NCBI RefSeq assembly: GCF_021295095.1
Contig: NZ_JAJLQX010000001.1
Location: 248,001 to 312,000, forward strand
Direction: 5' to 3'
Length of the DNA: 64,000 nt
Source: Phocaeicola oris
GTDB taxonomy: Bacteria > Bacteroidota > Bacteroidia > Bacteroidales > Bacteroidaceae
Part shown: one piece after another, positions 17,649 to 62,599 of the stretch
Layout of the letters: every line of letters starts with the position of its first letter
How positions within the stretch are numbered: the stretch's first letter is position 1
Position numbers and translations under genes: made by a program
The notes under the pieces: model-generated
The model's database searches: none
What the model saw: the letters and a program-made list of their open reading frames with translations, nothing else
Told to the model about the DNA's origin: nothing

Positions 17649-17774
17649 TGATGCATATCAATCGTTCAACTCATCCGCATGAATCGTTCAACTCATCCGC
17701 ATGAATCGTTCAACTCATCCGCATGAATCGTTCAACTCATCCGCATGAATTACTCAACTCATACGTATCACTTT
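17649..17774. repeat. 22-bp palindromic array A (six cores)
   Basis: Six 12-bp cores start at 17649, 17671, 17693, 17715, 17737 and 17759, exactly 22 bp apart. The middle four are identical (TCATCCGCATGA) with a fixed ATCGTTCAAC spacer; the outer two differ (TGATGCATATCA and TCATACGTATCA followed by CTTTTT). The array fills the gap between the convergent trpB2 and thioredoxin-like genes, past the trpB2 terminator. It is not a CRISPR array: the spacers are short and nearly constant. Confidence 0.9.
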
Positions 17775-17842
17775 TTCAATTTATAAAGAAAAAAAGATAG
17801 GTAGATCCGTATGACCTACCTATCTGATATATATGACAAAGT

Positions 17843-18688
17843 TTACTTTAGCTCATCATCGATTCTCTTTACCAAATCGGCAAATTCTTCGGGCTTATAA
17901 AGACGGGTGCGCATCATAATCTTTCCTTCTTTATTAATCAAAACATTACGTGTAATGCCCGACTCTCGTACAGCATATTTTGCATAGATTTCGGCTCCAG
18001 GGTCTAATCCAAGCGGATACGTCACACCGGTTTGCTCAGCAAACTTCTTCACTGTCTCAATTGGTTCGTCACGGTCGATGCCTATTAAAACAAAATTCGG
18101 ATCATCCTTGTATTGCTGCCAAATTTCACTTTCTATATGCGGCATCTCTTTTCGGCATACACCACACCAACTGGCTGTAAACTGTAACATAACCACTTTT
18201 CCACGGAGCTTACTCAGTGTAACTTGTTTCCCATCGACCAGTGTAATGGTAAAGTCTGGCGCTTCGTCACCATCGAAAACAATGTAACCGTTCTTATCCG
18301 ACTTTTCCAAGGAGTCCTCTCCCATAGACTTTTTCCATGTTTTAATTCCACCGCCCAAATTAATCATCCTATAACCGGCTTCAGTTAACAGAGTAGCTGC
18401 TTTGGCACTGCGTATACCTCCCAAGCAATATACTGCAACCGGCTTATCTGTCGTTAACAATTCTTTTGCTTGATCGAGGAAATCAGTTGCTTTCATATCA
18501 ATATTCATCGCGTTTCTAATATGACCGGCTACATATTCGCTATCAGTTCGCACATCCAGCAACTGAATGGTATCGGAATCAATAATCTTAGCAAATTCTT
18601 CTGCGCTGACGGTTGCAAACTTTTCCTGACTACATGCCGAAATAACAATACCGGCACTTATTAAAAGGAGAGAAAGAATCTTTTTCAT
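17843..18688 (-). CDS. Lipoprotein with rhodanese and TlpA-like thioredoxin domains
   Basis: The 281-residue product starts at the ATG at 18686-18688, one base after the stop of the upstream gene; an in-frame extension to 18721 would lie inside that gene and lacks a signal peptide. A lipoprotein signal ends at VISAC (C19). Residues about 25-125 form a rhodanese domain with active loop CLGGIR (C88), and residues about 140-281 form a TlpA/AhpC-type thioredoxin domain with WCGVC (C175, C178). The sequence suggests a periplasm-facing sulfur or thiol-redox protein; the substrate is unknown. The one-base spacing to the PHP-type lipoprotein gene implies translational coupling. Confidence 0.88.
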   Translation of the reverse strand: MKKILSLLLISAGIVISACSQEKFATVSAEEFAKIIDSDTIQLLDVRTDSEYVAGHIRNAMNIDMKATDFLDQAKELLTTDKPVAVYCLGGIRSAKAATLLTEAGYRMINLGGGIKTWKKSMGEDSLEKSDKNGYIVFDGDEAPDFTITLVDGKQVTLSKLRGKVVMLQFTASWCGVCRKEMPHIESEIWQQYKDDPNFVLIGIDRDEPIETVKKFAEQTGVTYPLGLDPGAEIYAKYAVRESGITRNVLINKEGKIMMRTRLYKPEEFADLVKRIDDELK

Positions 18689-18689
18689 A

Positions 18690-20102
18690 TTACTTTTTTT
18701 GCCCAAAATGATTATAATCAACTGCTTGGCGAGTATTACGAATACTCATTGGCGGAAACCAAATATCATCGGCAGTAATACCACATTCCTTTATAGCCTG
18801 AATAGCATACTCACACTTTCCAAAATTAGCGTCCACATTGTTCGTTCCAAAAGTGAACTTCAAACCACGCTCTTTAGCTTTCTTAATAATAGCTATACTG
18901 GGTATCTTATATCGCGGACTGATTTCCAATGCGATATGATATTTTTCTAATACATCAAGTACTTTGTTTACACGTTTGTCTGTCCAATACTTATCATAAT
19001 CAGCCTGCATGTCATCAGGAATATATGTAGCATTGGCATAAATATCGACAGGCTCATTGGTTAAAATTTTCACAATCTGATCAACGATGAGATCCATATA
19101 TTGTTCCATATTTAAACCTTCACGCTTCACTTCTTCCGGATGATAAATACGGGATATACGGTTTTTATGATCGACAATGGTCATGGCGTCAGTAAACAAA
19201 TAGTCGAACAAGCCTAATGCTTCCTTAGAAAAGACAGTTGACCAGCGGCGTCCTTCACCCTGCGCGCCACGCAAGAACGGCATATCTTTAACTTCATTAA
19301 AATAATCGTATGCTTCGGCATCGTTAGCAAGCATACGTCCTACTCCACCTTCGCCAAGATTTGGAGCAACACCGTAATTAATGCCATAATTCATAGACAT
19401 AGCGTGCGCCATCTCCTTAGTCAGTCCACCTTTCAAATGAACATGGTAATCAATAACCGGGAAATTCTGCTGTTGCAACTTAATAATCTCATCGTTCTGC
19501 TCATCAATAACAGGCATGGTATCGTTAGGATTAACTGCAGTCTTATCTAACGGAGTGATAGTTAAATCGCTAAACTTAACATCGCCCTTCTGTCCTATCA
19601 GCACAATTGGTCCTTTACTTAATATTTTATTTGCATTCTCCGGGATACGATATGGATTCTCAGGCTCTGTATAACAAACCACATCCATTCCATTGATACT
19701 CACTTCAATGTTCTTTCCACGAACAGCAATTTGAAAATCAAAAGGCTGACCATCGGTAGCTAAAGAACGGTACAGGTTACGAACCGTTGATAAACTTCCT
19801 GTCTTACGAGTTCCATCTATTGGTCCGTTATGAAAAAGAACTTCGTATCCTTGGTGGAATCGAAGGGAAGCTACACCTTCCGCGTCGGCAATTGCCTTAC
19901 CTTTTAAAATAAAATTCTGATACTCTCCTTTGGCAGTCAGTTGCTGACCGGCTACCAAATCAAATTCTGAACTTTCAACAGCTTTGTTATTCACATCGCT
20001 GAACTGAAGGGCTTGTTCTTCACCCACTTTCTGTCCGCAAGCCGCGAACAAGAATGTCATTATGGCAACAAGTGCCATGTTTAATAATGTAATTTTCTTC
20101 AT
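18690..20102 (-). CDS. Lipoprotein with concanavalin-like and PHP/amidohydrolase-like domains
   Basis: The 470-residue product has a lipoprotein signal ending in LFAAC (C22). The first half (about 35-190) is beta-rich and resembles the 3-keto-disaccharide hydrolase/DUF1080 carbohydrate fold (GPIVLIGQKGDVKFSDLTI near its end). The second half begins with DYHVHLKGG near residue 218, a metal-binding DxHxH motif of PHP or amidohydrolase TIM-barrel enzymes, and continues through LEISPRYKIPS and FTFGTNNVDANFG, as in PHP-type phosphoesterases. A hydrolase working on an envelope or dietary substrate is inferred. It is the first of a coupled pair with the rhodanese-thioredoxin lipoprotein gene. Confidence 0.78.
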   Translation of the reverse strand: MKKITLLNMALVAIMTFLFAACGQKVGEEQALQFSDVNNKAVESSEFDLVAGQQLTAKGEYQNFILKGKAIADAEGVASLRFHQGYEVLFHNGPIDGTRKTGSLSTVRNLYRSLATDGQPFDFQIAVRGKNIEVSINGMDVVCYTEPENPYRIPENANKILSKGPIVLIGQKGDVKFSDLTITPLDKTAVNPNDTMPVIDEQNDEIIKLQQQNFPVIDYHVHLKGGLTKEMAHAMSMNYGINYGVAPNLGEGGVGRMLANDAEAYDYFNEVKDMPFLRGAQGEGRRWSTVFSKEALGLFDYLFTDAMTIVDHKNRISRIYHPEEVKREGLNMEQYMDLIVDQIVKILTNEPVDIYANATYIPDDMQADYDKYWTDKRVNKVLDVLEKYHIALEISPRYKIPSIAIIKKAKERGLKFTFGTNNVDANFGKCEYAIQAIKECGITADDIWFPPMSIRNTRQAVDYNHFGQKK

Positions 20103-20107
20103 AATAT

Positions 20108-20500
20108 TTAATTCATCCAGTTGACTACATAATGTAATTGCAAGTATTGGCGTCCGGGTTTAACATATCCTTGTTCCATCACATTTTTCCTGATTGTAAA
20201 TACTTCCAGACGCTTTTTCAAATAACTCTCCACTTTCATTGTCTGTTTTTTACAGTAACTCAGTACTTCAACTTTACCGAACGGAGACACTTCAGCATAT
20301 ACTTTCACGTTCCGTGTTATAGCATGGAAAGGGAGTTCTCGTCCTCTGGTATAATCCACCCAAAGAATGGCTGTTGCCTTACAAGTATCGCATTCCTCAT
20401 CAAGTCCCTTATCATAAAGATTCCCTTTAAGGAAAATAGATAAAGGAAAGAAAGACAATAGGATAACAACAATAATTATTAATGTAATGTGCTTCTTCAT
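20108..20500 (-). CDS. Hypothetical membrane-anchored protein
   Basis: I do not recognise this 130-residue protein. A single N-terminal hydrophobic segment (about residues 5-24) is followed by a soluble domain with a CDTC pair near residue 37-40 and another Cys near 82. The C-terminal half has alternating beta and basic residues. It lies 5 bp ahead of the PHP-type lipoprotein gene and 15 bp behind the DUF308 gene on the same strand, so the four minus-strand genes 17843-21142 look like one operon. Probably periplasmic and membrane-tethered. Confidence 0.65.
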   Translation of the reverse strand: MKKHITLIIIVVILLSFFPLSIFLKGNLYDKGLDEECDTCKATAILWVDYTRGRELPFHAITRNVKVYAEVSPFGKVEVLSYCKKQTMKVESYLKKRLEVFTIRKNVMEQGYVKPGRQYLQLHYVVNWMN

Positions 20501-20515
20501 TGTTTAGATGCTATA

Positions 20516-21142
20516 TTATATCTTTTGTTCTTGGTCTGTAGAATTTTCAATTGACTTTGTTCTTTCGAATGCAGACTCTGCGTCAGTCACATCCTCTGCT
20601 TCCACATCAACAATCGTTTTCTCAGCTTGTTCTATAAATTTACGAAATCGAATAATTCGTATTATATCGGTAATAGCGTAAATAATAGCACTCATACCCA
20701 ATATTATAATAGGTACAGTTCGGGCTGTAAACGGATTAGCCAAAACCAAAACACCTGCAAATAGAATTAATATAGAAAAGAAATAGTATGCGCCCGATAC
20801 CTTTGTCAGATTCTTTATGGCAACAAGTCGAGATATTTGATGGATACCGGCAAGAACAAGTACTGCACCCAAGACATACATTAATATATTAGCGAAGAAC
20901 CCCGGCATAACCATCAGCCAGAGTCCGAAAAAAGCACTTCCGATGCCTGACAATGGAAAAGGCAAACCTTGTTTCTGCCTATTTATATAATATGAAAAGA
21001 TAGTAAACATCCCTGGGATAAAAAACAAAGCTCCTATTAATATAATAAGATAGATGGATATCTCATTAGGAAATAAAATAAGAAGTATTCCTACGGCCAA
21101 TGCACAGACGCATCTTATAATAGCATAATTTAGTATCTTCAT
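20516..21142 (-). CDS. HdeD/DUF308 family membrane protein
   Basis: The 208-residue protein has about six hydrophobic helices in three hairpins with the small-residue patterns of the HdeD/DUF308 family (GALFFIPGMFTIF, GAVLVLAGIHQISRLVAI, GMSAIIYAITDIIRI). A charged acidic tail follows from about residue 175. HdeD proteins are linked to acid resistance in enterobacteria, but the function here is unknown. It is the first gene of the predicted four-gene minus-strand operon. Confidence 0.82.
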   Translation of the reverse strand: MKILNYAIIRCVCALAVGILLILFPNEISIYLIILIGALFFIPGMFTIFSYYINRQKQGLPFPLSGIGSAFFGLWLMVMPGFFANILMYVLGAVLVLAGIHQISRLVAIKNLTKVSGAYYFFSILILFAGVLVLANPFTARTVPIIILGMSAIIYAITDIIRIIRFRKFIEQAEKTIVDVEAEDVTDAESAFERTKSIENSTDQEQKI

Positions 21143-21324
21143 TTGATAACGTATTTAAAAGGATAGTGCGAATATATATATTTTTCTTAAATTAGATTTG
21201 TTTTTGCGTCATAAATATTGCAAATGAAAAGAAGATTTTGTAGTTTTACATTATGAAGCATAAGAGGTTTAGATTCTCTATTGTAACAGTTGGATAGTTA
21301 TTTATAGTTTAAAAAATAAAGATT

Positions 21325-21588
21325 ATGAGAAAAGGTGAATTTCTTTTAGGTATGGCTCTGGGAACGATTGTTGGTGGAGCTCTCGGTTTCTTATCACAGA
21401 CAAGAAAAGGTCGGAGATTCAGAAGAGACATGAAGCACAAGCTTGAAGATTTGCAAGATGAGGTATGCGATTATGTACAGCGTGCAAAAGACAAAGCGAC
21501 AAACGTTAAAGACGATGTTGTAGAAAAAGTCAACAAGCAGGCTGATGCTATTAAAGAAAAATTGAATACTTCTGAGGATTACGATTAA
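21325..21588 (+). CDS. YtxH domain-containing protein
   Basis: The 87-residue protein has a glycine-rich hydrophobic N terminus (FLLGMALGTIVGGALGFL) followed by TRKGRRFRR and a long amphipathic, lysine-rich helix, the pattern of YtxH/gas-vesicle-like small stress proteins that are membrane-anchored. Function is unknown in general. It is monocistronic with a strong terminator and is divergent from the DUF308 gene. Confidence 0.82.
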   Translation: MRKGEFLLGMALGTIVGGALGFLSQTRKGRRFRRDMKHKLEDLQDEVCDYVQRAKDKATNVKDDVVEKVNKQADAIKEKLNTSEDYD

Positions 21589-21610
21589 TTAATCCCAAAA
21601 AATTAGTTAT

Positions 21611-21640
21611 AAAGCTCAGATTAAAAGGTCTGAGCTTTTT
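21611..21640 (+). terminator. Terminator after the YtxH gene
   Basis: AAAGCTCAGA (21611-21620) pairs perfectly with TCTGAGCTTT (21629-21638), followed by T residues. Confidence 0.85.
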
Positions 21641-21800
21641 CATGTTTTCATAAATATGTCTTCAATGCTGATGGTCAACAAAGTGTTATCGTGTCCATTT
21701 TATTGAAGATATTCTCTTTGATATTTGATAATATAAAATTTTTCTGTAATTTCTTATAAAAAAAAATAGCAAAAAAGTTTATTTTTATAAATAAAGATCG

Positions 21801-21808
21801 TATATTTG
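21801..21808 (+). promoter_or_regulatory. Predicted -7 element of a small RNA transcript
   Basis: TATATTTG matches the phylum consensus and lies about 100 bp upstream of a strong terminator hairpin with no ORF between. The -33 region is only AAGTTT, so the promoter call is moderate. Confidence 0.5.
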
Positions 21809-21814
21809 TAGCGT

Positions 21815-21946
21815 AGTCAATAGGCTGTGAAGTTTATTGATTATTCTAATCGAAAGATTAGATAAATAGAATAGTTTAGTTAAGTCTAGTTTAGTTTTTG
21901 TGTTGTAATAGAAGTTCTCACGGGCGAGTGTGAACTTCTATTTTTG
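21815..21946 (+). ncRNA. Candidate small RNA, about 130 nt
   Basis: The region between a TATATTTG box and an intrinsic terminator has no start-codon-led frame of note. It folds into distinct elements: TCAATA and TATTGA arms around 21828-21842, a TCTAATC-GAAA-GATTAGA hairpin at 21845-21862 closed by a GNRA tetraloop, and the terminal ATAGAAGTTCTCAC/GTGTGAACTTCTAT hairpin (21908-21941) followed by TTTTG. Such a promoter, structured body and terminator layout fits an independent small RNA. I do not recognise its family; 6S RNA is one possibility that I could neither support nor exclude. Confidence 0.5.
21908..21946 (+). terminator. Intrinsic terminator of the candidate small RNA
   Basis: A 14-bp stem with one mismatch and a GGGCGA loop, followed by TTTT. 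Confidence 0.8.
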
Positions 21947-22111
21947 TATATAAAATACCTGATTGCTCCCATTTTTGGTGTGCAGACAGAGGCGGTTGAT
22001 GTCGATTTGTAGGTATTTTTAATACGGATGACGTTTGGCTATGTCTCCAAGTCTTTTCTTTTCTTTTTTATCATGTTGATGTGGTAAGGTCTCTTTTTGA
22101 AACAATTTTTA

Positions 22112-22143
22112 TTGTCACTTTATAAATAAATATTGTAACTTTG
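22112..22143 (+). promoter_or_regulatory. Predicted promoter of the monooxygenase-like gene
   Basis: TTG at 22112-22114, a 21-bp spacer and TAACTTTG at 22136-22143; the ATG follows 20 bp later. Confidence 0.6.
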
Positions 22144-22162
22144 TAAATAAAAACAATATAAT

Positions 22163-22615
22163 ATGAGAATATCGTTAAGAATGATTTTACTTTCTGTTTT
22201 GATAGTATCATCCACCAAAATAGATGCTCAAGAGCCAAATATGGAAAAGACAAAACAAGGCGATTCTCTTCAAAGCGCAGAGGAAAAAGTTATTACCGTT
22301 AATCTTTATTATACAGGGAAGAACGGATCGGCAAGGAAGTTTGTTGAGGAAATGGAAAGCAGTGGGACTGTAACTGCCATACGGAATGAATCGGGTAATT
22401 TGCGTTATGAGTATTTTATCTCGATTTCCGATCCGGAAACAGTGCTGCTCATTGACAGTTGGAGCAGTCAAGAAGCTATAGACATTCATCATACATCGCC
22501 TATGATGAAGACGATAGCGACTCTCCGCGAAAAATATGATTTACACATGAAAGTTGAGCGTTATATTAAAGATGAAGGTTTTCGGGTGAAAGATGATGAG
22601 TTTATCCGACATTAA
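22163..22615 (+). CDS. Secreted antibiotic biosynthesis monooxygenase (ABM)-like protein
   Basis: The 150-residue product has an N-terminal signal-like segment (about 1-22) and then a single ABM/YgiN dimeric ferredoxin-like domain (VITVNLYYTGKNGSARKFVEE, then ETVLLIDSWSSQEAIDIHHTSPMM). ABM domains act as quinol monooxygenases or heme- and flavin-free oxygenases; family members are usually cytosolic, so the signal segment is a point of interest. It precedes, on the same strand, a CMD-cupin protein and a glyoxalase-like protein, but array B separates it from them. The substrate is not predictable. Confidence 0.75.
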   Translation: MRISLRMILLSVLIVSSTKIDAQEPNMEKTKQGDSLQSAEEKVITVNLYYTGKNGSARKFVEEMESSGTVTAIRNESGNLRYEYFISISDPETVLLIDSWSSQEAIDIHHTSPMMKTIATLREKYDLHMKVERYIKDEGFRVKDDEFIRH

Positions 22616-22649
22616 GGAGAATGGAATGAGAGAAACGGTTCATCTCTCC

Positions 22650-22733
22650 AAGTGATACGTATGAATCGCTCAACTCATCCGCATGAATTGCCCAACTCAT
22701 CCGCATGAACCGGTTAACTCATACGTATCACTT
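22650..22733. repeat. 22-bp palindromic array B (four cores, perfect inverted ends)
   Basis: Cores start at 22653, 22675, 22697 and 22719, spaced exactly 22 bp apart. The outer cores TGATACGTATGA and TCATACGTATCA are exact reverse complements, and with flanking bases give a perfect 15-bp inverted repeat (22650-22664 with 22719-22733). The two inner cores are both TCATCCGCATGA. The element lies between two same-strand genes, 35 bp past the upstream stop and 90 bp ahead of the next start. Confidence 0.9.
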
Positions 22734-22822
22734 TGCCGGATGATGACCGTCTCTTTCGGAAGAGATACTTATCCCCCACCAACAGCCTATGGAATAAGAG
22801 AATTCGTTAAATAATTAAATAT

Positions 22823-24076
22823 ATGAATAGAATACGTCTTGTGCTCTTACTCTGCTTCTTCATGGCATCGGGTATAATGTACGCGCAAAAAACTACAGAA
22901 CAAAAAATGGAGGTAAATATGTTGAAAGAGAACAATTTTATGAAGAATGATCCTGAATTTGCAGAACGTTTTGACCGTTTTGCTTTTGGTGAAGTGTACG
23001 ATCAGACGAAGACACAAATAGACGACCGCGTACGCTATATGTGTTATATGGCAACTTTGCTTGGTTGTCAAGGTGTTGATGTTTACAAACCTTTATTGCA
23101 AGATGCCCTTGATAAGGGAGTGACACCAATTGAAGTAAAAGAAATTATCTATCAGGCAACTGCTTACCTTGGTCTTGGGCGTGTTTATCCGTTTCTTACA
23201 GTCGCTAATCATGTTTTTAAAAAGCGAGGTATAGAATTACCATTGGAACCACAGAGTCAGACCATTATTTCTAACCGTCGTAAAAAAGGAAACCAAGTGC
23301 AAATAGACATCTTCGGCGAGCGGATACGTGAATCGTGGAAGAATGCTCCTGAAGACTCGCGTCACATCAATGAATGGCTTGCCGATAATTGCTTTGGTGA
23401 TTACTACACTCGAAAAGGATTGACAATTAAGCAGCGCGAGATGATCACTTTCTGTTATATTGCCGCACAAGGAGGTTGTGAATCGCAATTAAAAGCGCAT
23501 ATTATGGGTAACTTCAGTGTTGGTAACGACAAAGATTTTCTTATTGCTGTCATTTCCAATAATATCCCTTTTATTGGTTATCCTCGCGCATTAAATGCGC
23601 TGAATTGTATTCGTGAGGTTGTAAAACAAACAGAATCATCTGAAGCATCATTAAACATAAGTAAATATAATATTACTAAAGAACAATTGGTGTTTCCTTT
23701 TGGGCAGCCTAACACTGCTTACGCTAAATACTTTATTGGCCATTCATACCTTGCGTCTATTGCTTCAGGTGAAGGTAAGTTGCCGGTTCATAATGTAACT
23801 TTCGAGCCGGGATGCCGGAATAATTGGCACATCCATAAAGGTGGTGGGCAGATTCTAATCTGTGTAGCCGGTAGAGGATGGTATCAGGAATGGGGAAAAC
23901 CGGTGCAGGAACTTAAACCGGGCGATACCATCGATATTCCCGCAGGTGTAAAACATTGGCATGGCGCAGCCAAAGACTCATGGTTCCAACATATAGCACT
24001 TGCCGTACCGGCAGAGAATTCGAGTACCGATTGGCTGGAAGCTGTATCGGATGAAGAATATGGAAAATTGAAGTAG
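22823..24076 (+). CDS. Secreted carboxymuconolactone decarboxylase-cupin fusion protein
   Basis: The 417-residue product has a signal peptide (cleavage expected after IMYAQ, about residue 21). Two carboxymuconolactone decarboxylase/AhpD-like helical domains follow (about 45-155 and 165-280, the second with AAQGGCESQLKAHI), and then a C-terminal cupin (about 310-410) with the metal-site pattern NNWHIHKGGGQILICVAGRG and PAGVKHWHG. Fused CMD-cupin proteins are common and poorly characterised; peroxide reduction or ring-lactone chemistry is possible. The AhpD CxxC is not obvious: only single cysteines are seen. It is followed 44 bp later by a glyoxalase-like gene, likely in one operon. Confidence 0.82.
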   Translation: MNRIRLVLLLCFFMASGIMYAQKTTEQKMEVNMLKENNFMKNDPEFAERFDRFAFGEVYDQTKTQIDDRVRYMCYMATLLGCQGVDVYKPLLQDALDKGVTPIEVKEIIYQATAYLGLGRVYPFLTVANHVFKKRGIELPLEPQSQTIISNRRKKGNQVQIDIFGERIRESWKNAPEDSRHINEWLADNCFGDYYTRKGLTIKQREMITFCYIAAQGGCESQLKAHIMGNFSVGNDKDFLIAVISNNIPFIGYPRALNALNCIREVVKQTESSEASLNISKYNITKEQLVFPFGQPNTAYAKYFIGHSYLASIASGEGKLPVHNVTFEPGCRNNWHIHKGGGQILICVAGRGWYQEWGKPVQELKPGDTIDIPAGVKHWHGAAKDSWFQHIALAVPAENSSTDWLEAVSDEEYGKLK

Positions 24077-24120
24077 AAAAATAAGTATTAAAATAAATCT
24101 TAAACAAAGAAAAGTTGATA

Positions 24121-25139: not shown

Positions 25140-25141
25140 CT

Positions 25142-26530: not shown

Positions 26531-26558
26531 AGAGATCAGATTTAGTTAGACTTCTTTT

Positions 26559-26999: not shown

Positions 27000-27021
27000 A
27001 ATTAAAAACTTACTTTGTTTG

Positions 27022-30390: not shown

Positions 30391-30555
30391 TATGTACCAA
30401 AGATCTATTTATATTATTGTATATCGAAATGGTATAAGATGAATTGGGGGTAAATCTTCATAAGCAATCAAATTACATAAGCTATTGGAAGCTATGAGAT
30501 GATGAATCTATGAGCCTATCTATATTGATTAAATTTATCATCAAGATGAACCGAC

Positions 30556-30681
30556 AAAGTGATACGCATGAACCGTCCAACTCATACGGATGACTTTAAC
30601 AACTCATGCGGATGAATTAACTAACTCATCAGCATCACTTACTCAACTCATCAGCATCACTTCAATCGCTCATACGTAACA
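30556..30681. repeat. 22-bp palindromic array C (six cores)
   Basis: Cores start at 30560, 30582, 30604, 30626, 30648 and 30670, exactly 22 bp apart. They are the most varied set in the window: TGATACGCATGA, TCATACGGATGA, TCATGCGGATGA, two TCATCAGCATCA and TCATACGTAACA. The left end has the AAAG-TGATACG terminus. The array lies about 165 bp past the rng terminator and 100 bp upstream of the predicted promoter of the next gene. Confidence 0.88.
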
Positions 30682-34008: not shown

Positions 34009-34094
34009 GATATCGTTTGTTTATTTTCAGCAAAGGTATATTTTTTTAGAGTAATTCATACAATATATAAAGAAATTGATTATTTTTGCGCTTG

Positions 34095-34290
34095 GAAATC
34101 AGGTGAGACAATGACTGACCGGTCGGAGTCTTTAAAAGGGAATTCGGTGAAAGGCCGAAACAGTACCCGCTACTGTAAGATCCAGTTCCTTGAAATATAG
34201 GAATTTACATTTCTACAATACCACTGTCCGGAAGTAATAACGGATGGGAAGGTGAAGGATCAAGTCAGGAGACCTGCCCGATAACCATAA
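34095..34290 (+). promoter_or_regulatory. Cobalamin riboswitch upstream of the TonB receptor operon
   Basis: The B12 box AAGTCAGGAGACCTGCC lies at 34262-34278, and upstream are the other conserved blocks of the cobalamin class: CAGTACCCGCTACTGTAA around 34161-34178, GGTGAAAGGCCGAAA before it, and CACTGTCCGG then GGGAAGGTGAAGG. A TATTTTTG box at 34081-34088 gives a likely start near 34095. High adenosylcobalamin would be expected to reduce expression of the TonB receptor and possibly the downstream genes. Confidence 0.95.
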
Positions 34291-34348
34291 TTAACGAAGT
34301 TCCCGGGTAAGGAACTTATTTAATAACTTAAATTACACTTTTCTTTTT

Positions 34349-48296: not shown

Positions 48297-48339
48297 TGAA
48301 TATAAATTTATTCTCCACACCCGGAAGTTTGATTCCATT

Positions 48340-48492
48340 ACGATTCGGCAGGTCTTCTGACTCACTCCTTAACCCAACGCCTTCCCGTCTGAACTAACAG
48401 TGGCTGTAGTATGGATCTTTTCAGAGCTTACAGCAGCGGGTACTGCTCAGGATTCTCACCTGATTCCCTTTTAATTAGTTTTAAACCAAATC
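48340..48492 (-). promoter_or_regulatory. Cobalamin riboswitch upstream of btuFCD
   Basis: On the minus strand the B12 box GAGTCAGAAGACCTGCC lies at 48363-48347. Upstream in the transcript are CAGTACCCGCTGCTGTAAGC, GCCACTGTTAG and GACGGGAAGGC, the conserved blocks of the class in the right order. A minus-strand TATTTTTG box (48499-48506) places the transcription start near 48492. It is expected to shut off transport genes when cobalamin is plentiful. Confidence 0.96.
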
Positions 48493-48645
48493 AAGGTACA
48501 AAAATACACACTTCTTATAGCAAAACAAAATTCTCACTACAAATTCTAAATAAAGAAACGGAACTTTTTGATGGAAGATAGGCTATTTATTGCGCATTTT
48601 CATGGTTCAGACTATCATGGCTCCTGCTATTACAGAGATCCGAGA

Positions 48646-48796
48646 AAAGTAATACGTATGAGTTTTCAAAATCATCAGAAGTTTTGAGCAACTCATACGT
48701 ATCAATCAAACGATTCATGCGCATCACTTTGTCAATTCATGCGCATCACTTTATCGGTTTATGCGTATCACTTTGTCGGTTTATGCGTATCACTTT
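48646..48796. repeat. 22-bp palindromic array D (seven cores)
   Basis: Cores start at 48650, 48672, 48693, 48715, 48737, 48759 and 48781. Spacing is 22 bp except one step of 21. The second core is degenerate (TCATCAGAAGTT). Later cores are two TCATGCGCATCA and two TTATGCGTATCA, so this array has its own centre sequence. Left end AAAG-TAATACGTATGA and right end CGTATCA-CTTT fit the inverted termini. It lies about 140 bp upstream of the btuF promoter and just past the 3' end of the cupin gene. Confidence 0.88.
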
Positions 48797-52510: not shown

Positions 52511-52528
52511 TATAATAAGATTTGAAGA

Positions 52529-54418: not shown

Positions 54419-54428
54419 TACTCTACTT

Positions 54429-56546
54429 ATGAATAAAACATACTTAATCTTAATGGCAGCTGCACTAATGATGACTTCTTGCAAAAAGGAAGAAAAGCAA
54501 ACAGAAGAACAAGCCCCTTTCATTGGTAAGCAAGAGGTTACCATAAAAGATGGAAGAATGACTCCCGAAGTACTCTGGGCTATGGGACGTATCGGCAGTA
54601 GCTCTGTATCTCCTGATGGCAAAAAGGTTGCCTATACAGTAGCTTATTACAGTGTTACAGAAAACAAAAGCCACCGCGTCATATATACCATGAACGCAGA
54701 TGGAACAGAGAACAAGATACTCACTAAAACTTCGTTCAACGAAGGTGATCCGCAATGGATCAATAATGGAGAACAAATAGCTTTCCTCTGCAACGAAGAC
54801 GGAAGCAATCAACTTTGGGTAATGAACACCGATGGATCTAATCGGCATAAGGTATCATCGTACAAAGGTGATATAGAAGGATTCAGTTTCTCTCCGGATG
54901 GAACAAAAGTACTCTTCATTGCTCAAATAAATAATGGGAAAAGCACAGCAGAACGTTATCCCGACTTACCTAAAGCTACAGGTATGGTCATAGACGATTT
55001 AAACTACAAACATTGGGATGAATATGTGCTAACCATTCCACACCCTTTTGTGGCTGATTTTACGGATGGTAAAGTAGGCGAAGCTACTGATATTCTTCAA
55101 GGCGAACCATACGAAAGTCCGATGAAACCGTTCGGTGGTATTGAACAGTTGGCTTGGAGCCCGTATTCTAATTTCATCGCCTATACTTGCCGGAAGAAGG
55201 AAGGATTGGCATACGCGCAGTCTACCGATTCTGATATTTATCTGTACGACTTGAACACTAAACAAACTACTAATGTTTGTAAGATTGAAGGTGATACTGA
55301 CCAGAATATGGGTTATGACACGAATCCGAAATTTAGTCCTGACGGACAGTGGTTGGCATGGCAAAGTATGCAACGTGATGGTTATGAAAGCGACCGAAAC
55401 CGCTTGTGCGTATATAATCTGATGAGCCATAGAAAGAACTATGTAACAGAAAGTTTTGAAAGTAATGTGGACGATTATGTGTGGAATAATGACTGCAAGA
55501 GCTTTTATTTTATAGGTGTATGGCATGGGACTACCATGGTATACAGTGCTAACTTCGACGGTGATGTGAAAAAGATTACCAATGGTAACTTCGACTATGG
55601 ATCGGTTGCTTTGTTAGGTGATCAAATTCTTTGTAAGCGTCACTCTATCAGTGCTGCAGACGAACTTTACGCTATCAATCCTACAGATGGAACAGCTACT
55701 CAGTTAACCCACGAAAACGATGCAATCTTCAAACAGCTCACACTTGGAAAAGTAGAGGAACGCTGGACAAAAACTACCGATGGTGAGGACATGCTGTCAT
55801 GGGTAATATATCCATCGAACTTTGATCCCAATAAAAAGTACCCTACTCTGCTCTTCTGCGAAGGCGGTCCCCAAAGTCCGGTAAGCCAATTCTGGAGCTA
55901 CCGGTGGAACTTCCAGATTATGGCAGCCAATAATTATATTATCATCGCTCCAAATCGTCGTGGCCTTCCCGGTTTCGGAATGAAATGGCTTGAAGAAATC
56001 AGTGGTGATTACGCAGGGCAGTGCATGAAAGATTATCTTTCTGCTATTGATGATATTGCTAAGGAACCTTATGTCGATGCCGAACATTTAGGTTGTGTCG
56101 GTGCCAGCTTTGGTGGTTATTCCGTTTACTGGCTGGCCGGTAATCACAATAAGCGTTTCAAAGCCTTTATTGCTCACGATGGTATTTTTAATGTTGAGCA
56201 ACAATACCTTGAAACAGAGGAACTCTGGTTCACCAAATGGGATTTAGGTGGTCCGTACTGGGAGAAGAACAACCCTATTGCACAGCGCAGTATAGCAACT
56301 TCTCCTCACCGTTACATTGATAATTGGGATACTCCTATACTTTGTATCCATGGTGATAAAGACTATCGAATCCTATCCTCTCAGGGGCAATCAGCATTCC
56401 AGGCTGCTCTGCTGAAAGGTATTCCTGCCGAATTGTTACTCTATCTGGATGAAAACCACTGGGTATTGAAACCACAAAACGGAATTCTATGGCAGCGAAC
56501 TTTCTTCGCTTGGCTTGACAAATGGTTAAAACCACAAAACAAATAA
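54429..56546 (+). CDS. S9 family prolyl oligopeptidase, dipeptidyl-peptidase type, lipoprotein
   Basis: The 705-residue product begins with a lipoprotein signal ending in LMMTSC (C17), giving an envelope location. A beta-propeller made of WD40-like/TolB-like repeats (SPDGKK, SPDGTK, SPDGQW) occupies about 40-450. The C-terminal alpha/beta-hydrolase domain has nucleophile S560 in GASFGGY, D645 in HGDKDYR and H677 in ENHW, as in DPP-V-like and acyl-aminoacyl peptidases. It probably cleaves dipeptides from peptides in the periplasm. It follows yidC by 10 bp and ends at a strong terminator. Confidence 0.9.
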   Translation: MNKTYLILMAAALMMTSCKKEEKQTEEQAPFIGKQEVTIKDGRMTPEVLWAMGRIGSSSVSPDGKKVAYTVAYYSVTENKSHRVIYTMNADGTENKILTKTSFNEGDPQWINNGEQIAFLCNEDGSNQLWVMNTDGSNRHKVSSYKGDIEGFSFSPDGTKVLFIAQINNGKSTAERYPDLPKATGMVIDDLNYKHWDEYVLTIPHPFVADFTDGKVGEATDILQGEPYESPMKPFGGIEQLAWSPYSNFIAYTCRKKEGLAYAQSTDSDIYLYDLNTKQTTNVCKIEGDTDQNMGYDTNPKFSPDGQWLAWQSMQRDGYESDRNRLCVYNLMSHRKNYVTESFESNVDDYVWNNDCKSFYFIGVWHGTTMVYSANFDGDVKKITNGNFDYGSVALLGDQILCKRHSISAADELYAINPTDGTATQLTHENDAIFKQLTLGKVEERWTKTTDGEDMLSWVIYPSNFDPNKKYPTLLFCEGGPQSPVSQFWSYRWNFQIMAANNYIIIAPNRRGLPGFGMKWLEEISGDYAGQCMKDYLSAIDDIAKEPYVDAEHLGCVGASFGGYSVYWLAGNHNKRFKAFIAHDGIFNVEQQYLETEELWFTKWDLGGPYWEKNNPIAQRSIATSPHRYIDNWDTPILCIHGDKDYRILSSQGQSAFQAALLKGIPAELLLYLDENHWVLKPQNGILWQRTFFAWLDKWLKPQNK

Positions 56547-56553
56547 ACTTCAT

Positions 56554-56593
56554 AAAACACCGTTCACCTTTTGAAGAACGGTGTTTTTTTATT
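56554..56593 (+). terminator. Terminator after the S9 peptidase gene
   Basis: AAAACACCGTTC (56554-56565) pairs perfectly with GAACGGTGTTTT (56576-56587), followed by a T run. Confidence 0.9.
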
Positions 56594-56752
56594 TCCTATT
56601 GGAATAAGTATGCCTTTTATAACTCAGCCTGACCTTTTGCCTTTCCTACAACATCAATAGAAAGGTTATGTTAAACCTCATTCTTGAGCAGAAGCGTCCT
56701 TACAATGCGTTTAAACATTGTTTTTGTATTCTTGTCAGATGTATTAAATTGG
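56588..56752. other. Intergenic stretch before array E
   Basis: About 165 bp with no ORF, promoter or hairpin that I can support. Confidence 0.4.
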
Positions 56753-56878
56753 TCATAAGGATGACCGGAAAAAGTGATACGTATAAACCGTCTAACTCAT
56801 ACGCATGAATCGATCAACTCATACGCATGACCGAGGAAAGTGATACGCATGAATTGATCAACTCATACGCATCACTTT
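56753..56878. repeat. 22-bp palindromic array E (six cores)
   Basis: Cores start at 56753, 56775, 56797, 56819, 56841 and 56863, exactly 22 bp apart. Three are TCATACGCATGA or its variant TCATACGCATCA, one TGATACGTATAA and one TGATACGCATGA; the first (TCATAAGGATGA) is more diverged. Two AAAG-TGATACG left-end forms occur (56771 and 56837), and the right end is CGCATCA-CTTT. This suggests that two shorter elements have joined. It lies past the S9 peptidase terminator and about 200 bp ahead of the patatin gene. Confidence 0.88.
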
Positions 56879-57084
56879 GCATAAACTTCTAATGAACTCG
56901 GAAGCTCAATGCGTATCTCCTCGATTAAAGATAAAAGCACATTAAAATAAAGTACTTGATAAGCACATTCAATGATATATCCTAATTCTACAGAGTTACT
57001 ATTTGAACATAAAGAAAGAGGAAAAGAACTTGCGAAAGAAAGAAAAATCTATCATCTTTGCGATATGAACGCAAAAATACATTT

Positions 57085-59322
57085 ATGAGGAAGATTCACT
57101 TTATTTTCATTTTAATCATCCATATACTGGCATTTAACCAACCGATCACTTCACAAGAAAAAGCTCATGAACGCCCTAAAGTAGGTGTTGTTCTCAGTGG
57201 TGGAGGCGCTAAAGGCATGGCTCATATCAGTGCGCTGAAAATCATTGAAGAAGCCGGAGTTCCTATTGATTATATCGTAGGAACAAGCATGGGATCTATC
57301 ATCGGCGGCCTCTATTCCATCGGTTATACACCTGCTCAAATGGACAGTATGGTACACAAACAAGACTGGACTTTCCTTCTCACTGATAAGATAGTATCTA
57401 CAGAACAGAATATCACACAGAAAGAAAATAAAGAAACGTATCTTCTCTCCGTTCCTATTCACAAAGACATGAAAAAGGAAATATTAAGTGGACTCATTCG
57501 TGGTGAGAATTTGGCCAATCTCTTTAGCGAACTCACTATCGGTTACCACGACTCTATCGATTTCAATACCTTAAAGACTCCGTTTGCCTGTGTTTCAGAG
57601 GATATAGTAAGTGGTAAGCCTTACGTGTTTCATAATGGTATACTAACCGAAGCGATGCGGTCGAGTATGGCTATTCCGGCCGTTTTTACTCCAGTCCGTA
57701 AAGACAGTATGGTATTAGTTGACGGTGGTGCCGTCAATAACTATCCTGTAGATGTGGCTAAAGCCATGGGAGCTGACTATATTATTGGTATAGATGTACA
57801 GAGTGATAAACGGAATGCCAATGAACTAACCAGTGCAAAAGATATTATTTTTCAACTTGTCAACATGATGGGGAGTGACCTCTATAAAGAAAACCTAAAG
57901 AATACAGATGTCTATATCAAGGTGAATGTAGAAGGATATAGTTCTGCCAGTTTCACTCCTGACGCTATTGATTCACTTATTCGTCGTGGCGAGGAAGCCG
58001 CGACAGCTCAATTACCTGCATTACGCAGTTTGAAGAAAATGTTGGGGCTCCCCAACTATTACAAACCAGACAGAGGCAATCCATATCCCTGCATGCAGAA
58101 CAAAATAGTAAAGGTAAACAATATCACCATTAACGGAATGGATCAGAACGATGAGAAATGGATAGAGAAACATTTTAACCTGCAGGAGAACTCAGAAATC
58201 AGTATTGACAAAATAAAAGAGATTGCTAATGATATCCGTGCCAATCTAAACTATAAAAGCGCTATCTATCACCTCACACGTTCGGAAACCAATAAAGGAT
58301 ACGACTTGAGCTTTGACCTTACCAAACAAACAGATGATAAGATTAATGTTGGCTTTCGATTCGATTCAGAAGAAAATGCTTCCCTTCTTATCAATATGAC
58401 CGGTCACCTGAAGCGGAAAAGTAAACCGAATATCTTCTCCGCTACCATCCGCTTAGGAAAGCGTATGGGAGCCGACATATCGTACGCATGGGCTCCATCG
58501 CCTATGCGAAAAATTGGCTTACAATACAGTTTCCGTTACAATGATATAAACTTCTATTATAATAATAGGAAGGTATTTAATACTAACTTCCGCTATCATA
58601 AAGCAGAGATTGCTTACTCCGATGTATGGCACACTAATTTAGGATTCTCCTTGGGAGTTCGCTATGAACTATACGATTACAGCAAGTTTCTCTATGAACC
58701 GGACTTTTATATGAGTTCCTCCATCAATCTGGACACAGAACATTTCTTTACCTACTTTGCTAAAATTAAATACGATTCCACTGATAAGCCTTATTTTCCT
58801 TCAAAGGGTATGATAGCAACGGCATCGTATGAGTATATCACCGATAACTTTGCTAAATACTATGATATAGTCGGCCCTTCGGCTGTACAGGGAAGCATAG
58901 AAAGCGTAATACGCATGAGCCATCGATTCGCGACCATACCTTTTATCTATGGAAGGTTTCTTTTTGGAAAGACTATTCCATATTCCAAGATGAATGTGAT
59001 GGGTGGCGATGTCCCCGGATATATGATGGAAAAAGAACTTCCGTTTGTGGGTGTAAATACCGCCCAACTAATGAATCATTCGCTGGTGGTAGGTGGCATA
59101 AAACTCCGTCAGCGTATCGGTAAGGCACACTACATTACCATGACCAATAACTATGCTCTGAGCAGTAAGAAGATAAAAGATCTTTTGAACAGCTATACCG
59201 CCTACGGATTCAGTCTGGGCTATGGGATGGATAGTATATTTGGCCCGTTGGAACTATCCTTAAACTACATGAATCACTCCAGCAAAGTACGTTTCTTTGT
59301 CAATCTTGGATTTCGATTCTAA
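57085..59322 (+). CDS. Patatin-like phospholipase with C-terminal outer-membrane barrel
   Basis: The 745-residue product starts at the ATG at 57085, which opens a signal peptide (RKIHFIFILIIHILAFNQPI). The patatin domain (about 30-300) has the oxyanion loop SGGGAKG, nucleophile S68 in GTSMGS and D213 in DGGAVNN, forming the Ser-Asp dyad. A POTRA-like segment (about 350-420) and a BamA/TamA-type 16-stranded barrel follow, ending in FFVNLGFRF with terminal Phe. This is the PlpD-like type V autotransporter layout, so the lipase may face the periplasm or be displayed. An in-frame TTG at 57058 is less likely. Its end overlaps pullulanase by 4 bp. Confidence 0.88.
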   Translation: MRKIHFIFILIIHILAFNQPITSQEKAHERPKVGVVLSGGGAKGMAHISALKIIEEAGVPIDYIVGTSMGSIIGGLYSIGYTPAQMDSMVHKQDWTFLLTDKIVSTEQNITQKENKETYLLSVPIHKDMKKEILSGLIRGENLANLFSELTIGYHDSIDFNTLKTPFACVSEDIVSGKPYVFHNGILTEAMRSSMAIPAVFTPVRKDSMVLVDGGAVNNYPVDVAKAMGADYIIGIDVQSDKRNANELTSAKDIIFQLVNMMGSDLYKENLKNTDVYIKVNVEGYSSASFTPDAIDSLIRRGEEAATAQLPALRSLKKMLGLPNYYKPDRGNPYPCMQNKIVKVNNITINGMDQNDEKWIEKHFNLQENSEISIDKIKEIANDIRANLNYKSAIYHLTRSETNKGYDLSFDLTKQTDDKINVGFRFDSEENASLLINMTGHLKRKSKPNIFSATIRLGKRMGADISYAWAPSPMRKIGLQYSFRYNDINFYYNNRKVFNTNFRYHKAEIAYSDVWHTNLGFSLGVRYELYDYSKFLYEPDFYMSSSINLDTEHFFTYFAKIKYDSTDKPYFPSKGMIATASYEYITDNFAKYYDIVGPSAVQGSIESVIRMSHRFATIPFIYGRFLFGKTIPYSKMNVMGGDVPGYMMEKELPFVGVNTAQLMNHSLVVGGIKLRQRIGKAHYITMTNNYALSSKKIKDLLNSYTAYGFSLGYGMDSIFGPLELSLNYMNHSSKVRFFVNLGFRF

Positions 59323-61310
59323 TCGTGCATGATGAGAGCCGACTGCGCCGGAATAGATACTGTTGAGCCCCACAAAATAGAAAGCCCCATCGGTTCTACC
59401 CGCCCGTCTTTGCATACCACCGTGTATTTCCCGTCAGGTACCTGAACGGTAGCCGGTTCTTTACGACTGTTGAAGAATACATAGATAGTATTCCATTCAT
59501 CACCTCCGGCATGATCTTTTAACTTAAAAGCTATTAAGTCCGGTCCGTCTACATTTATAAACTCCATATACTGACGAACTCTCTCAGCATTATTCAGACG
59601 GAAAGCAACATGTGCTTTCCGTAAAGCTATCAATCCTTTTACATAGTCAAATATATCCTTATGCACCGATTTCAGATTCCAATCGATAGCATTGATACTG
59701 TCTGGACTATTGTAAGAGTTGTGCACCCCTCTCTTATTACGCATCATCTCATCTCCATTGAAAATGAAAGGAATACCCTGAGAAGTAAAAATGACTGTCT
59801 CGGCCAACTTTTGTAATGCAACCAACTCTGTTTCCGAAGCCGTCGGATTGGTGGTTCTTAATCTGTCAGCCAAACACATATCATCATGGCAACTCACATA
59901 ACTTATCATTTGCGTCGGTTGAATAGCCCAAGCCGACTTACTATAGTTCACCTTATCATAATCTATCTGTGGATGTTGTATGGCACCCACCAAACCAAAC
60001 TTAACGCTCTCCTCATTTCCGGGTTTACCAACCAAGAATGCACCCATCTTATTATCATTCCACGGTCCTCTTAGACCATCTCGCATTTCATCACCAAAAG
60101 CAGATATACGAGACATCTCACTCATATTCTTCTTCATGGCAAGCTTCTTTTCCGGATAAGCAGGAGTACCGGCAGCCCATCCTTCCCCATAAATAAAGAT
60201 GGATGGATCAATATCATCCAGTGCCTTGCGAATCTCATTCATCGTCTCTATATCATGAATGCCCATCAAATCGAAACGAAAACCATCAATATGATACTCT
60301 CGTGCCCAATAACACACCGATTGAATCATGAACTTACGCATCATCGGGTGATCACTGGCAGTTTCATTACCACAACCCGAAGCATTCGAATATTTCCCTT
60401 CTTCGGTCACGCGATAAAAATATCCCGGAGCAGTCCGTTCAAATGCACTGCCCTTTATGTCATAGGTATGATTATATACCACATCGAGTACCACACGGAT
60501 TCCGGCATTGTGCAGAGCCTGAACCATCTGTTTGAATTCTAATATACGAACTTCCGGCTTAAAAGGGTCAGTTGAGTACGAGCCGTCAGGAACATTATAG
60601 TTTACAGGATCATATCCCCAATTATATTGTTCCTTTTCCAGATGTACCTCATCCACCGATGCATAATCTGTCGACGGCAACAAATGCACATGAGTAACAC
60701 CAAGTTCTTTCAGATGATCCAGACCGGAAGTCTCTCCTTGCATAGTCTTTACCCCTTCTTCGGTGAGTGCTATATATTTCCCTTTATTACGAATACCCGA
60801 AATAGTATCAATGGAAAAGTCACGATGATGCATCTCATATACAATAATATCCCCGTAATCATTCAGAACGGGACGCCTATCTGCGCTCCATCCTTCCGGA
60901 TCGGTCATCTTCCAATCAATAACAGCCCCTCTCTTTCCATTCACACCCACCGCTTTAGCAAATATGCCCGGAGTATCACCCATCCAACGCTTATCTTTCT
61001 TCACGTTGAATGTATAAAACTTGCCTTTCAAATCTCCATCGCATTCAGCGTTCCAAACACCATCCTCACCAAGGGTCATATCAATTGACCGCAACGCAGA
61101 GCCCGAATTAGCAGACTCATATAACAACACACGAACCTCATCTGCTTCAGGCGACCATAGATGGAAATCAGTCTTTGCGGGAGAATACAACATTTCATTT
61201 ATCTCTCCTGCAGGAACCGGATAATCCATTACCGAGGTATAAACTTTCTTTTCTTCCTTGCAGCCGGCACCTAACAACATCATCATAATCAACGCATATT
61301 TTAATTTCAT
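59319..61310 (-). CDS. pulA: Type I pullulanase, lipoprotein
   Basis: Pullulanase cleaves alpha-1,6 branch points of pullulan, amylopectin and glycogen. The 663-residue product has a lipoprotein signal ending in LLGAGC (C17), a CBM48-type beta domain (about 35-140) and a GH13 barrel. The type I signature YNWGYDPVNYNVPDGSY is near 233-249, the nucleophile is D347 in FRFDLMG and the acid-base residue is E376 in YGEGWAAG. A C-terminal beta domain follows. It lies 4 bp after ruvC on the same strand and overlaps the patatin gene's end, so it belongs to the DUF4286-ruvC-pulA operon. Confidence 0.94.
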   Translation of the reverse strand: MKLKYALIMMMLLGAGCKEEKKVYTSVMDYPVPAGEINEMLYSPAKTDFHLWSPEADEVRVLLYESANSGSALRSIDMTLGEDGVWNAECDGDLKGKFYTFNVKKDKRWMGDTPGIFAKAVGVNGKRGAVIDWKMTDPEGWSADRRPVLNDYGDIIVYEMHHRDFSIDTISGIRNKGKYIALTEEGVKTMQGETSGLDHLKELGVTHVHLLPSTDYASVDEVHLEKEQYNWGYDPVNYNVPDGSYSTDPFKPEVRILEFKQMVQALHNAGIRVVLDVVYNHTYDIKGSAFERTAPGYFYRVTEEGKYSNASGCGNETASDHPMMRKFMIQSVCYWAREYHIDGFRFDLMGIHDIETMNEIRKALDDIDPSIFIYGEGWAAGTPAYPEKKLAMKKNMSEMSRISAFGDEMRDGLRGPWNDNKMGAFLVGKPGNEESVKFGLVGAIQHPQIDYDKVNYSKSAWAIQPTQMISYVSCHDDMCLADRLRTTNPTASETELVALQKLAETVIFTSQGIPFIFNGDEMMRNKRGVHNSYNSPDSINAIDWNLKSVHKDIFDYVKGLIALRKAHVAFRLNNAERVRQYMEFINVDGPDLIAFKLKDHAGGDEWNTIYVFFNSRKEPATVQVPDGKYTVVCKDGRVEPMGLSILWGSTVSIPAQSALIMHD

Positions 61311-61314
61311 ATAA

Positions 61315-61905
61315 TCACATTTTTATATTTTTCTCATCAACTACTTTCCCCGGATTCCGGTCAACAAAATCTTTCCAACTATGATATTTCTTTGTTATAA
61401 CATCAGGTTTACCCATTTCCAAATAATGGCAGTAAGCAGCCCCCAACGCATCGGTCGCATCTAAAAACGGTCCCATCTCACTGTCCGGAATATGAAGCAT
61501 ACGTTGCAGCATATCGCCTACTTGCTCTTTACTCGCTCGCCCGTTTCCCGTAATGGCCATCTTAATTTTTAACGGAGCATATTCCGTGATAGGAATATCA
61601 CGACTTAATGCCGCGGCCATCGCCACTCCCTGAGCACGCCCCAGTTTCAACATTGATTGTACGTTCTTCCCATAGAAAGGAGCCTCAATAGCCAATTCAT
61701 CCGGCAAAAACGATTCGATAATCCCTATAACCCGCTCAAAAATATGTTTCAGTTTCAAGTAATGGTTCCTGTATTTACGCAAATCGATAACTCCTAACGA
61801 TACCACTGTCGGCTTCGTTCCTGTTACTCTCAATACCCCATACCCCATGATATTTGTACCGGGATCAATACCCAAAATAATCTTTTCCTTCACTGAATAA
61901 ATCAC
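61315..61905 (-). CDS. ruvC: Crossover junction endodeoxyribonuclease RuvC
   Basis: RuvC resolves Holliday junctions with RuvAB. The 196-residue product has the acidic active-site residues in place: D14 in GIDPGT, E74 in LAIEAPF, and D149 and D152 in LDATDAL. The start is GTG (61903-61905), overlapping the DUF4286 stop as GTGA, which points to coupled translation. A second GTG four codons later is an alternative. Confidence 0.95.
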
Positions 61906-62207
61906 CTTACTACCTCCATTAATGTATCGAAACCAAGTACCTTATTCTTAAAGACTTTGTTCAGCTCCTGAGTAATGCGGGGACTATATTGTGTATGGAA
62001 TTTCTGTAACATACCCAAACTTTCTGCTTCCCACTGCATGGAAAAACATTCACTATCGTGTTCCTTATGTGTCAAGATTCGTGTTAATCGCGGATTCATC
62101 AACATCCCCGTCTTCTCCACCTCCGGAATGAGGTAGGTATCCACCCAAGTTACAAAATTCCTTGCATCGGGTAACTCCACATGATATGTAGTATTATATA
62201 CGATCAT
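61902..62207 (-). CDS. DUF4286 family protein
   Basis: The 101-residue protein is a small alpha/beta domain starting [11 protein letters not shown] and ending in [10 protein letters not shown], the pattern of DUF4286, a ferredoxin-like-fold family common next to ruvC in Bacteroidota. Function unknown. It heads the DUF4286-ruvC-pulA operon. A minus-strand TAAATTTG box (62244-62251) is the likely -7 element. Confidence 0.87.
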
Positions 62208-62451
62208 ATTCCTTTATTTACAATATAAAAATTCTTTCTTTTACAAATTTATAAAACAATTCTCATAACCCTAAAAAATAGTGATGTAAAATATCTCTAA
62301 AGAACATGTCCTTCAGATTGATCATACTGCTGAATAAAGATAAAGCCGATACGCTACCATGAAATAACGAAGACTGATTGATTGATATATAAAACAAGAG
62401 ATATATGCCGTTTATAAGAATCAACCGGAAAAGTCTGTTTGACTATACTAC
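62208..62451. other. Intergenic region between DUF4286 and array F
   Basis: Apart from the predicted minus-strand -7 box at 62244-62251, I see no ORF, RNA gene or hairpin in this AT-rich stretch. Confidence 0.4.
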
Positions 62452-62599
62452 AAAGTGATACATATAAGTCAGTCAACTCATCAGCATGAATCAGTCAACT
62501 CATCAGCATGAATCAGTCAACTCATCAGCATGAATCGGTCAACTCATCAGCATGAATTTGTCAACTCATACGGATCACTTTTACAACTCATACGTGTTG
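62452..62599. repeat. 22-bp palindromic array F (seven cores)
   Basis: Cores start at 62456, 62478, 62500, 62522, 62544, 62566 and 62588, exactly 22 bp apart. Four are identical (TCATCAGCATGA) with ATCAGTCAAC or near-identical spacers. The ends are TGATACATATAA with AAAG before it, TCATACGGATCA with CTTTT after it, and a decayed TCATACGTGTTG. It lies between the hxlR 3' end and the DUF4286 promoter. Confidence 0.9.

Follow-up and report, generated by a model that had tools for sequence, protein, structure and literature searches.

We analysed a 64,000-bp stretch of the Phocaeicola oris genome (contig NZ_JAJLQX010000001.1, positions 248,001 to 312,000; hereafter the window), in which six intergenic regions carry tandem arrays of 22-bp units, each with a short core of dyad symmetry. 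These arrays are most likely the internal minisatellite of a high-copy, non-autonomous miniature inverted-repeat transposable element (MITE) built on ends of the IS982 type. An earlier note on this DNA had listed nucleoid or regulator binding sites, an mRNA element and a selfish intergenic repeat as candidate functions. The last is favoured by the terminal repeats, 7-bp target duplications, modules and IS982 relatives described here, an mRNA element is possible in view of folding and orientation bias, and dimer binding found no backing.

The complete element consists of a terminal inverted repeat (ACGTGARTTCGAYGAA), a left module, tandem 22-bp units, a right module and a second terminal inverted repeat. 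To the right of the arrays, sequence aligns for about 145 bp between copies up to a common stop (...TTATTTCATCGAATTCACGTTA), and right-module copies align down to a shared end, ...CGAATTCACGTTA; to the left, the element extends to GTGARTTCGACGAATT. The two ends are inverted repeats of each other (ACGTGARTTCGAYGAA), with the terminal consensus ACGTGARTTCG. Complete copies (loci L292-L295 and contig C33) measure about 375-450 bp. Nine terminal-repeat pairings were listed, two of which (L293 414-1504 and L295 767-1389) joined wrong partners, leaving seven two-ended elements. Target duplications, read by eye, are perfect over 7 bp in three of the seven (L292 TAAATTA, L293 TATCTTA, L295 TATCTTA) and match at 6 of 7 letters in three others, the remaining element being L294. 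IS982 elements make target duplications of a few bp.

Fragments coding for an IS982-family transposase N-terminus likewise begin with the terminal repeat of the MITE; their matches to NF033520 (E 0.0021 and 7.8e-7) fall under the curated cut-off. In 11 of the 12 cases printed a contig ends inside such an end, six times in the left end of the insertion sequence (IS) and five times in a second end resembling the MITE left end; related IS ends break this assembly. An intact IS982-family transposase of 308 aa (220.8 bits against a curated cut-off of 130) is found on contig C13, in a copy whose ends read ACGCGAGTTCGGG and which is flanked by ATTAGTT, perfectly duplicated over 7 bp; a MITE left end with a TCAT array lies close behind it. 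In addition, a hybrid on contig C1 (C1:1197-1840, L245) joins an IS982 left half and transposase N-terminus to the MITE right module and has a 6-of-7 target duplication. Six IS982 transposase matches occur in the genome, none of them inside a MITE copy except that in the C1 hybrid. From the shared ends, the fragments, the C13 copy and the hybrid we infer that an IS982 transposase may move the MITE in trans.

The units themselves differ between copies. Elements bearing target duplications contain another 22-bp unit, for example GTTTCACAGATGTGATACATTC, which is likewise a dyad around four bases. In five elements this type lies between left and right modules of the same kind, and the sixth is the C1 hybrid. 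Four such full copies, of 405, 426, 427 and 449 bp, are 97-99% identical outside gaps, and their length differences amount to roughly one or two whole units. Similarity is higher between adjacent units (0.725) than between units that are non-adjacent in one array (0.635) or stand in different arrays (0.634).

We surveyed contig stretches totalling 1,156,761 bp, or 39% of the 2.98-Mb genome (50 contigs; assembly 95% complete), and counted as an array any run of at least three units on the 22-bp grid. This gave 65 arrays of 3-9 units, which extrapolates to about 167 for the whole genome, and the 16-letter pattern CAACTCATMHGSATSA has 114 + 142 occurrences genome-wide against 0 in the control. 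The earlier note had asked whether cores are as frequent inside genes as between them; only 4 of the 65 arrays share over 40 bp with an open reading frame (ORF) of 100 aa or longer, in sequence of which such ORFs make up 88.7%. Several features had escaped that note: 49 of the 65 arrays are clearly directional by their linker (ATGAGTTGNNCGRTTCAT), 31 have an AAAGTGA-like start and 32 a TCACTT finish, and conserved modules flank arrays. Within the unit, a central CG and GTTG are conserved and an NN spacer is variable; the arms were required for detection, and their conservation in this set is not independent. An intergenic segment with repeated GTAGGTTC-like words is shared downstream of three arrays (C11:27552, C11:115925 and C47:76881), with 106 bp at 90.6% identity between two of them.

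Models trimmed of array sequence detected a module at 25 of the 65 arrays (both modules at 8, the left only at 6, the right only at 11, neither at 40), and neither model matched reversed sequence (0 matches). An earlier count of 36 of 65 was set aside because its left model contained array sequence. Element direction equals array direction in 21 of the 25 arrays with a module.

Several observations weigh against the reading as an IS982-type MITE. The 40 arrays without either module include four or five of the window's six, and a re-search of the 40 gave 0 matches with either trimmed model; the array-containing left model matched 7 of their 40 upstream flanks, 1 of 40 downstream flanks and 7 of 400 random stretches. 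The window arrays are mostly bare, and their membership of the MITE rests on the shared unit. In all six elements that have a target duplication the units are of the GTTTCAC type and not the TCAT type, and L294, the sole complete two-ended TCAT-type copy, shows no clear duplication. Pfam gave no match to the two transposase fragments. The terminal repeat of the C13 IS982 copy (ACGCGAGTTCGGG) is related to that of the MITE, yet different, and an IS whose terminal repeat matches exactly (ends ACGTGAGTTCGATGAA) was found as fragments only, mostly at contig ends.

Array sites were compared with relatives by eye. The gap beside the PALP gene of array 1 showed neither our neighbouring gene nor the array in any of 15 relatives, at least two of the stretches being coding, and the region following RNase G, inspected in four named relatives, had other neighbours and no array; the gaps compared (one genome per species) are not syntenic with our genome.

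Within the window, the core pattern TSATN4ATSA has 47 matches against 10.93 expected (sd 3.13), a number reached by 0 of 100 shuffles. The earlier count of 36 cores on a 22-bp period was fair: the six regions hold 29 exact and 5 one-mismatch cores, all on the 22-bp grid, and three off-grid one-mismatch cores at 48650, 48666 and 48790. Their intergenic position was likewise confirmed, each of the six arrays occupying a gap flanked by ORFs of 100 aa or longer. So was the 22-bp phase: across 757 kb of our genome, dyads of two 4-bp arms around a 4-bp centre recur at this spacing 101 times, while the average for periods 14-40, 22 itself included, is 23.6. The features of the window are as follows.

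17649..17774, minus strand: array 1, six exact cores, with a PALP enzyme gene on one side and a rhodanese/redoxin gene on the other.
22650..22738, minus strand: array 2, four exact cores, edges AAGTGAT...ATCACTTT.
30538..30681, minus strand: array 3, six exact cores and one mismatched, downstream of an RNase E/G-family gene.
48640..48692, plus strand: left sub-module (...ATCATCAGAAGTTTT...) before array 4 (nhmmer C11:296640-296739, E 9.1e-20, array-containing model).
48693..48796, plus strand: array 4, on-grid cores three exact and two with one mismatch.
56646..56769, minus strand: right MITE module at array 5 (nhmmer E 9e-20).
56753..56882, minus strand: array 5, five exact cores and one mismatched.
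56875..56924, minus strand: left sub-module at array 5 (nhmmer C11:304924-304838, E 3e-17, array-containing model).
62452..62599, minus strand: array 6, five exact cores and one mismatched, edge units degenerate.

In better copies, a right module of the array 5 type bears the terminal inverted repeat at its far end. The trimmed models found no MITE module at arrays 1, 2, 3 and 6, and the trimmed left model was not significant at array 4 or array 5. Rfam at gathering score gave no match to any array in the window, its matches being two cobalamin riboswitches and a tRNA only. The riboswitches lie at 48330-48505 (minus strand) and 34084-34295 (plus strand); array 4 adjoins the former, upstream of a periplasmic-binding-protein gene. 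Genes for tRNA-Cys and tRNA-Ser stand in opposite directions at 11338-11549.

The RNase E/G protein of the window matched Phocaeicola abscessus (92%), two uncultured Bacteroidetes/Bacteroidales MAGs (90%), an uncultured Phocaeicola (81%) and records of the Prevotella group, which suggests a Phocaeicola-group species. A related family was found elsewhere in the genus, in one genome (G029) alone among the 60 other members searched. The linker pattern, run on 61 genus genomes including our own, gave 113 matches in our genome, 50 in G029 and at most 9 in any other. The unit pattern matched three times in G029 and once in G032 among 35 genus members, and once in each of three among 24 genomes of other families in the order. 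The G029 family has 49 matches in 600 kb, and a genome-wide scan in which 40 of 226 candidates were scored gave at least 41 matches among those listed. In the 30 copies printed, and with exceptions, arrays have four units repeating every 22 bp, whose arms are CTA/TAG or CAT/ATG, and a linker, TAGYGTTGNNCGGTTCTA, that resembles our ATGAGTTGNNCGRTTCAT. A G029 core model matched our arrays weakly (best E 1.5e-4), and the outer ends, GA(A/G)CTTGTTTAAACTTT and its inverse, are unlike those of our MITE. The G029 element (L061, L066, L067, L197-L226) is a separate high-copy intergenic element, with four 22-bp dyads and with arms and outer inverted repeats of its own. Its two strands fold about equally (18 of 30), 13 of 23 elements in tandem gaps are aligned with the genes (13:10), and convergent gaps hold no excess (5 of 38 placed copies against 28 of 188 in the background). 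The same 22-bp dyad plan is filled by different unit sequences, both in one MITE and, with other ends, in G029.

Eight congeners, scanned over 40-200 kb for dyads of any sequence, showed no 22-bp excess like our own, but the scan missed the G029 family with its mostly 3-bp arms, so its negatives are weak. In genome G007, dyads with a 4-bp loop gave 7 pairs at 22 bp where the mean is 3; those with a 6-bp loop (L165-L171) were counted 33 times at 22 bp and 33 times at 33 bp and probably form one 11-bp tandem array. The exact two-unit pattern had 0 matches in a broad contig collection from which near relatives were possibly excluded, and plasmid and phage collections, each queried with one array, gave no match.

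Such arrays are easily taken for regulatory sites. The pitch of 22 bp comes to about two helical turns, and the earlier note had seen in it a fit to cooperative binding by a dimeric protein. Putative DNA sites for a dimeric, cooperatively binding nucleoid or regulatory protein would agree with the pitch and with the conserved central CG and GTTG beside a variable NN spacer. We nevertheless consider this explanation improbable. Core arm pairs in otherwise intact arms number 155 C-G, 76 G-G, 49 C-C and 7 G-C, the last against about 16 expected from the margins, and neither core nor linker contingency tables show covariation. Moreover, the TCAT/ATGA arms are replaced by TTTCAC/GTGAAA within one and the same MITE and by CTA/TAG in G029, and tandem duplication passes on the pitch with no protein needed. 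The proposed fit is thus unsupported, the core arms lacking covariation and their sequence being swapped in related arrays.

Short, high-copy intergenic palindromes also recall those of the repetitive extragenic palindrome (REP) and bacterial interspersed mosaic element (BIME) type, moved by a REP-associated tyrosine (RAYT, Y1) transposase. We regard this origin as extremely improbable here, since our element is bounded by long terminal inverted repeats and flanked by target duplications. In addition, Y1_Tnp (PF01797), present in 3 of 40 genus genomes, had no match in G029 or in our own genome, whose assembly is 95% complete and could miss a gene. REP and BIME sequences resemble our arrays as interspersed short intergenic dyads, whereas our dyads are tandem units inside a MITE.

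The unit is a G·U palindrome that pairs with itself on the ATGAGTTGNNCGRTTCAT strand when G·U pairs are allowed, and linker pairs comprise 362 Watson-Crick, 343 G·U, 33 A·C and 126 others. Folding energy is lower on the oriented strand in 46 of 49 directed arrays (the 16 of 65 with unclear direction dropped), with a mean strand difference of -16.85 kcal/mol and mean z of -5.49 vs -3.69, and six consensus units fold at -70.6 vs -24.1 kcal/mol on the two strands. Gene context was taken from 92 arrays of our genome, of which 4 overlapped ORFs and 3 at a stretch edge were unplaced. Of the 85 placed arrays, 28 sit in convergent gaps, the background share of such gaps being 74 of 347 (p 0.032). In tandem gene gaps, 29 of 40 arrays have the orientation of the genes and 11 the opposite one (p 0.006), or 25 against 9 (25/34, p 0.009) once unclear directions are dropped.

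These results would also suit arrays that are host RNA elements, in which hairpins at message ends stop or protect transcripts; the MITE would have been a mere vehicle for arrays that the host has since retained. This possible but rather unlikely alternative draws on the strand-specific folding, including that of the consensus units, and on an orientation bias that is present in our genome (29:11) and absent in G029 (13:10), whose strands fold about equally; bare arrays, too, outnumber those with modules (40 vs 25). Against it, the units do not compensate for one another, bare arrays are no better kept (arm consensus 0.861 vs 0.895 with modules), the linker pattern is without excess in 59 of 61 genus genomes searched, and removal of harmful insertions could equally give the orientation bias. 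The fold also has points on its debit side for the MITE account. The strand comparison is partly built in because the direction label is defined by the G·U-holding linker, although the gene-orientation bias is not. The fold is no weaker when units are re-ordered within arrays (mean z -0.03, n=46) or taken from different arrays (mean z +0.29, n=47). Mirror-position centres in 25 delimitable arrays are not significantly complementary (703 of 2000 permutations reach the value; 130 with Watson-Crick pairs only and 90 with internal positions only). RNA-level selection on the arrays is not proven.

For the transposable element that we favour, the history may have run as follows. An IS982 transposase would move the MITE in trans, and slippage or unequal exchange would lengthen and shorten the array. 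Ageing copies would lose their recognisable ends first, leaving bare arrays such as most of those in the window. With less confidence, we suggest that a transcript of one strand would fold into a long hairpin through its G·U-palindromic units, and that copies may persist mainly behind genes, oriented so that the hairpin forms at the message end.

The earlier note could match the arrays to nothing known; as described, however, BrickBuilt (PMC4596501) and BOX (PMC3049150) are elements of the same kind. BrickBuilt is a MITE of Porphyromonas gingivalis with a leader, tandem 23-nt units, a tail and terminal inverted repeats; its published description reports 19 copies in strain ATCC 33277, an always intergenic position, whole-unit number variation, predicted long stem-loops and no transposase remnant (PMC4596501). 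Our element shares the leader-like and tail-like flanking modules, the terminal inverted repeats, the intergenic position, the variation by whole units and the predicted folding into long stem-loops, and it too has no transposase. The terminal repeats given for BrickBuilt (GAGACCTTTGCA) are like those of the IS5-family ISPg1/ISPg9 and come with 4-bp duplications, whereas ours are of the IS982 type with 7-bp duplications. Its unit is a 23-nt AGAYCATARTATCCTCTCRTRTG and ours a 22-bp unit of different sequence between ACGTGARTTCG ends, so our element is not BrickBuilt itself. It is also denser, with 65 arrays in 39% of the genome against the 19 copies of ATCC 33277, and more asymmetric, since six units of the BrickBuilt consensus fold at -42.1 vs -35.9 on the two strands, compared with -70.6 vs -24.1.

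In Streptococcus pneumoniae and S. suis, BOX elements are described as boxA-(boxB)n-boxC with a variable tandem middle, IS-like terminal repeats, a folded RNA and enrichment between convergent genes, and in S. suis one boxB type stands between two different pairs of outer modules (PMC3049150). They are of the same composite type as our MITE and differ from it in parent IS and phylum. Cardinium belongs to the Bacteroidota. Its MITECca01, in strain cOegib, is derived from ISCca4 of the IS982 family and has 169 mostly intergenic copies of about 240 bp (PMC9769881). It is thus IS982-derived and high in copy number like ours; it differs in its length and in that its report, whose main text lacks the word 'tandem', describes no array in those terms (PMC9769881). 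The open-licence literature searched held no description of the present array family.

In comparison with these systems, our MITE is new in combining IS982-type ends with an array, in its high density, in its strong strand asymmetry and in a 22-bp plan reused with different units and ends. A speculative and rather unlikely reading is that what is kept is architecture and not sequence, namely weak dyads with a 4-nt centre on a 22-nt pitch, folding into a long hairpin and filled by at least three unit sequences in two MITEs of two species, with different ends. On that reading the array would be a functional cargo, recognised by RNA shape, that shields insertions behind genes and lets the MITE become so numerous. 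The present results link an apparently lone repeat to a design that has arisen repeatedly, in which the middle of a MITE is tandem and hairpin-forming; beside BrickBuilt and BOX there is now a case with IS982-type ends from a Phocaeicola-group species. The recurrence of this design with different units and ends raises the question of whether strand-specific hairpins lower the cost of insertion near gene ends.

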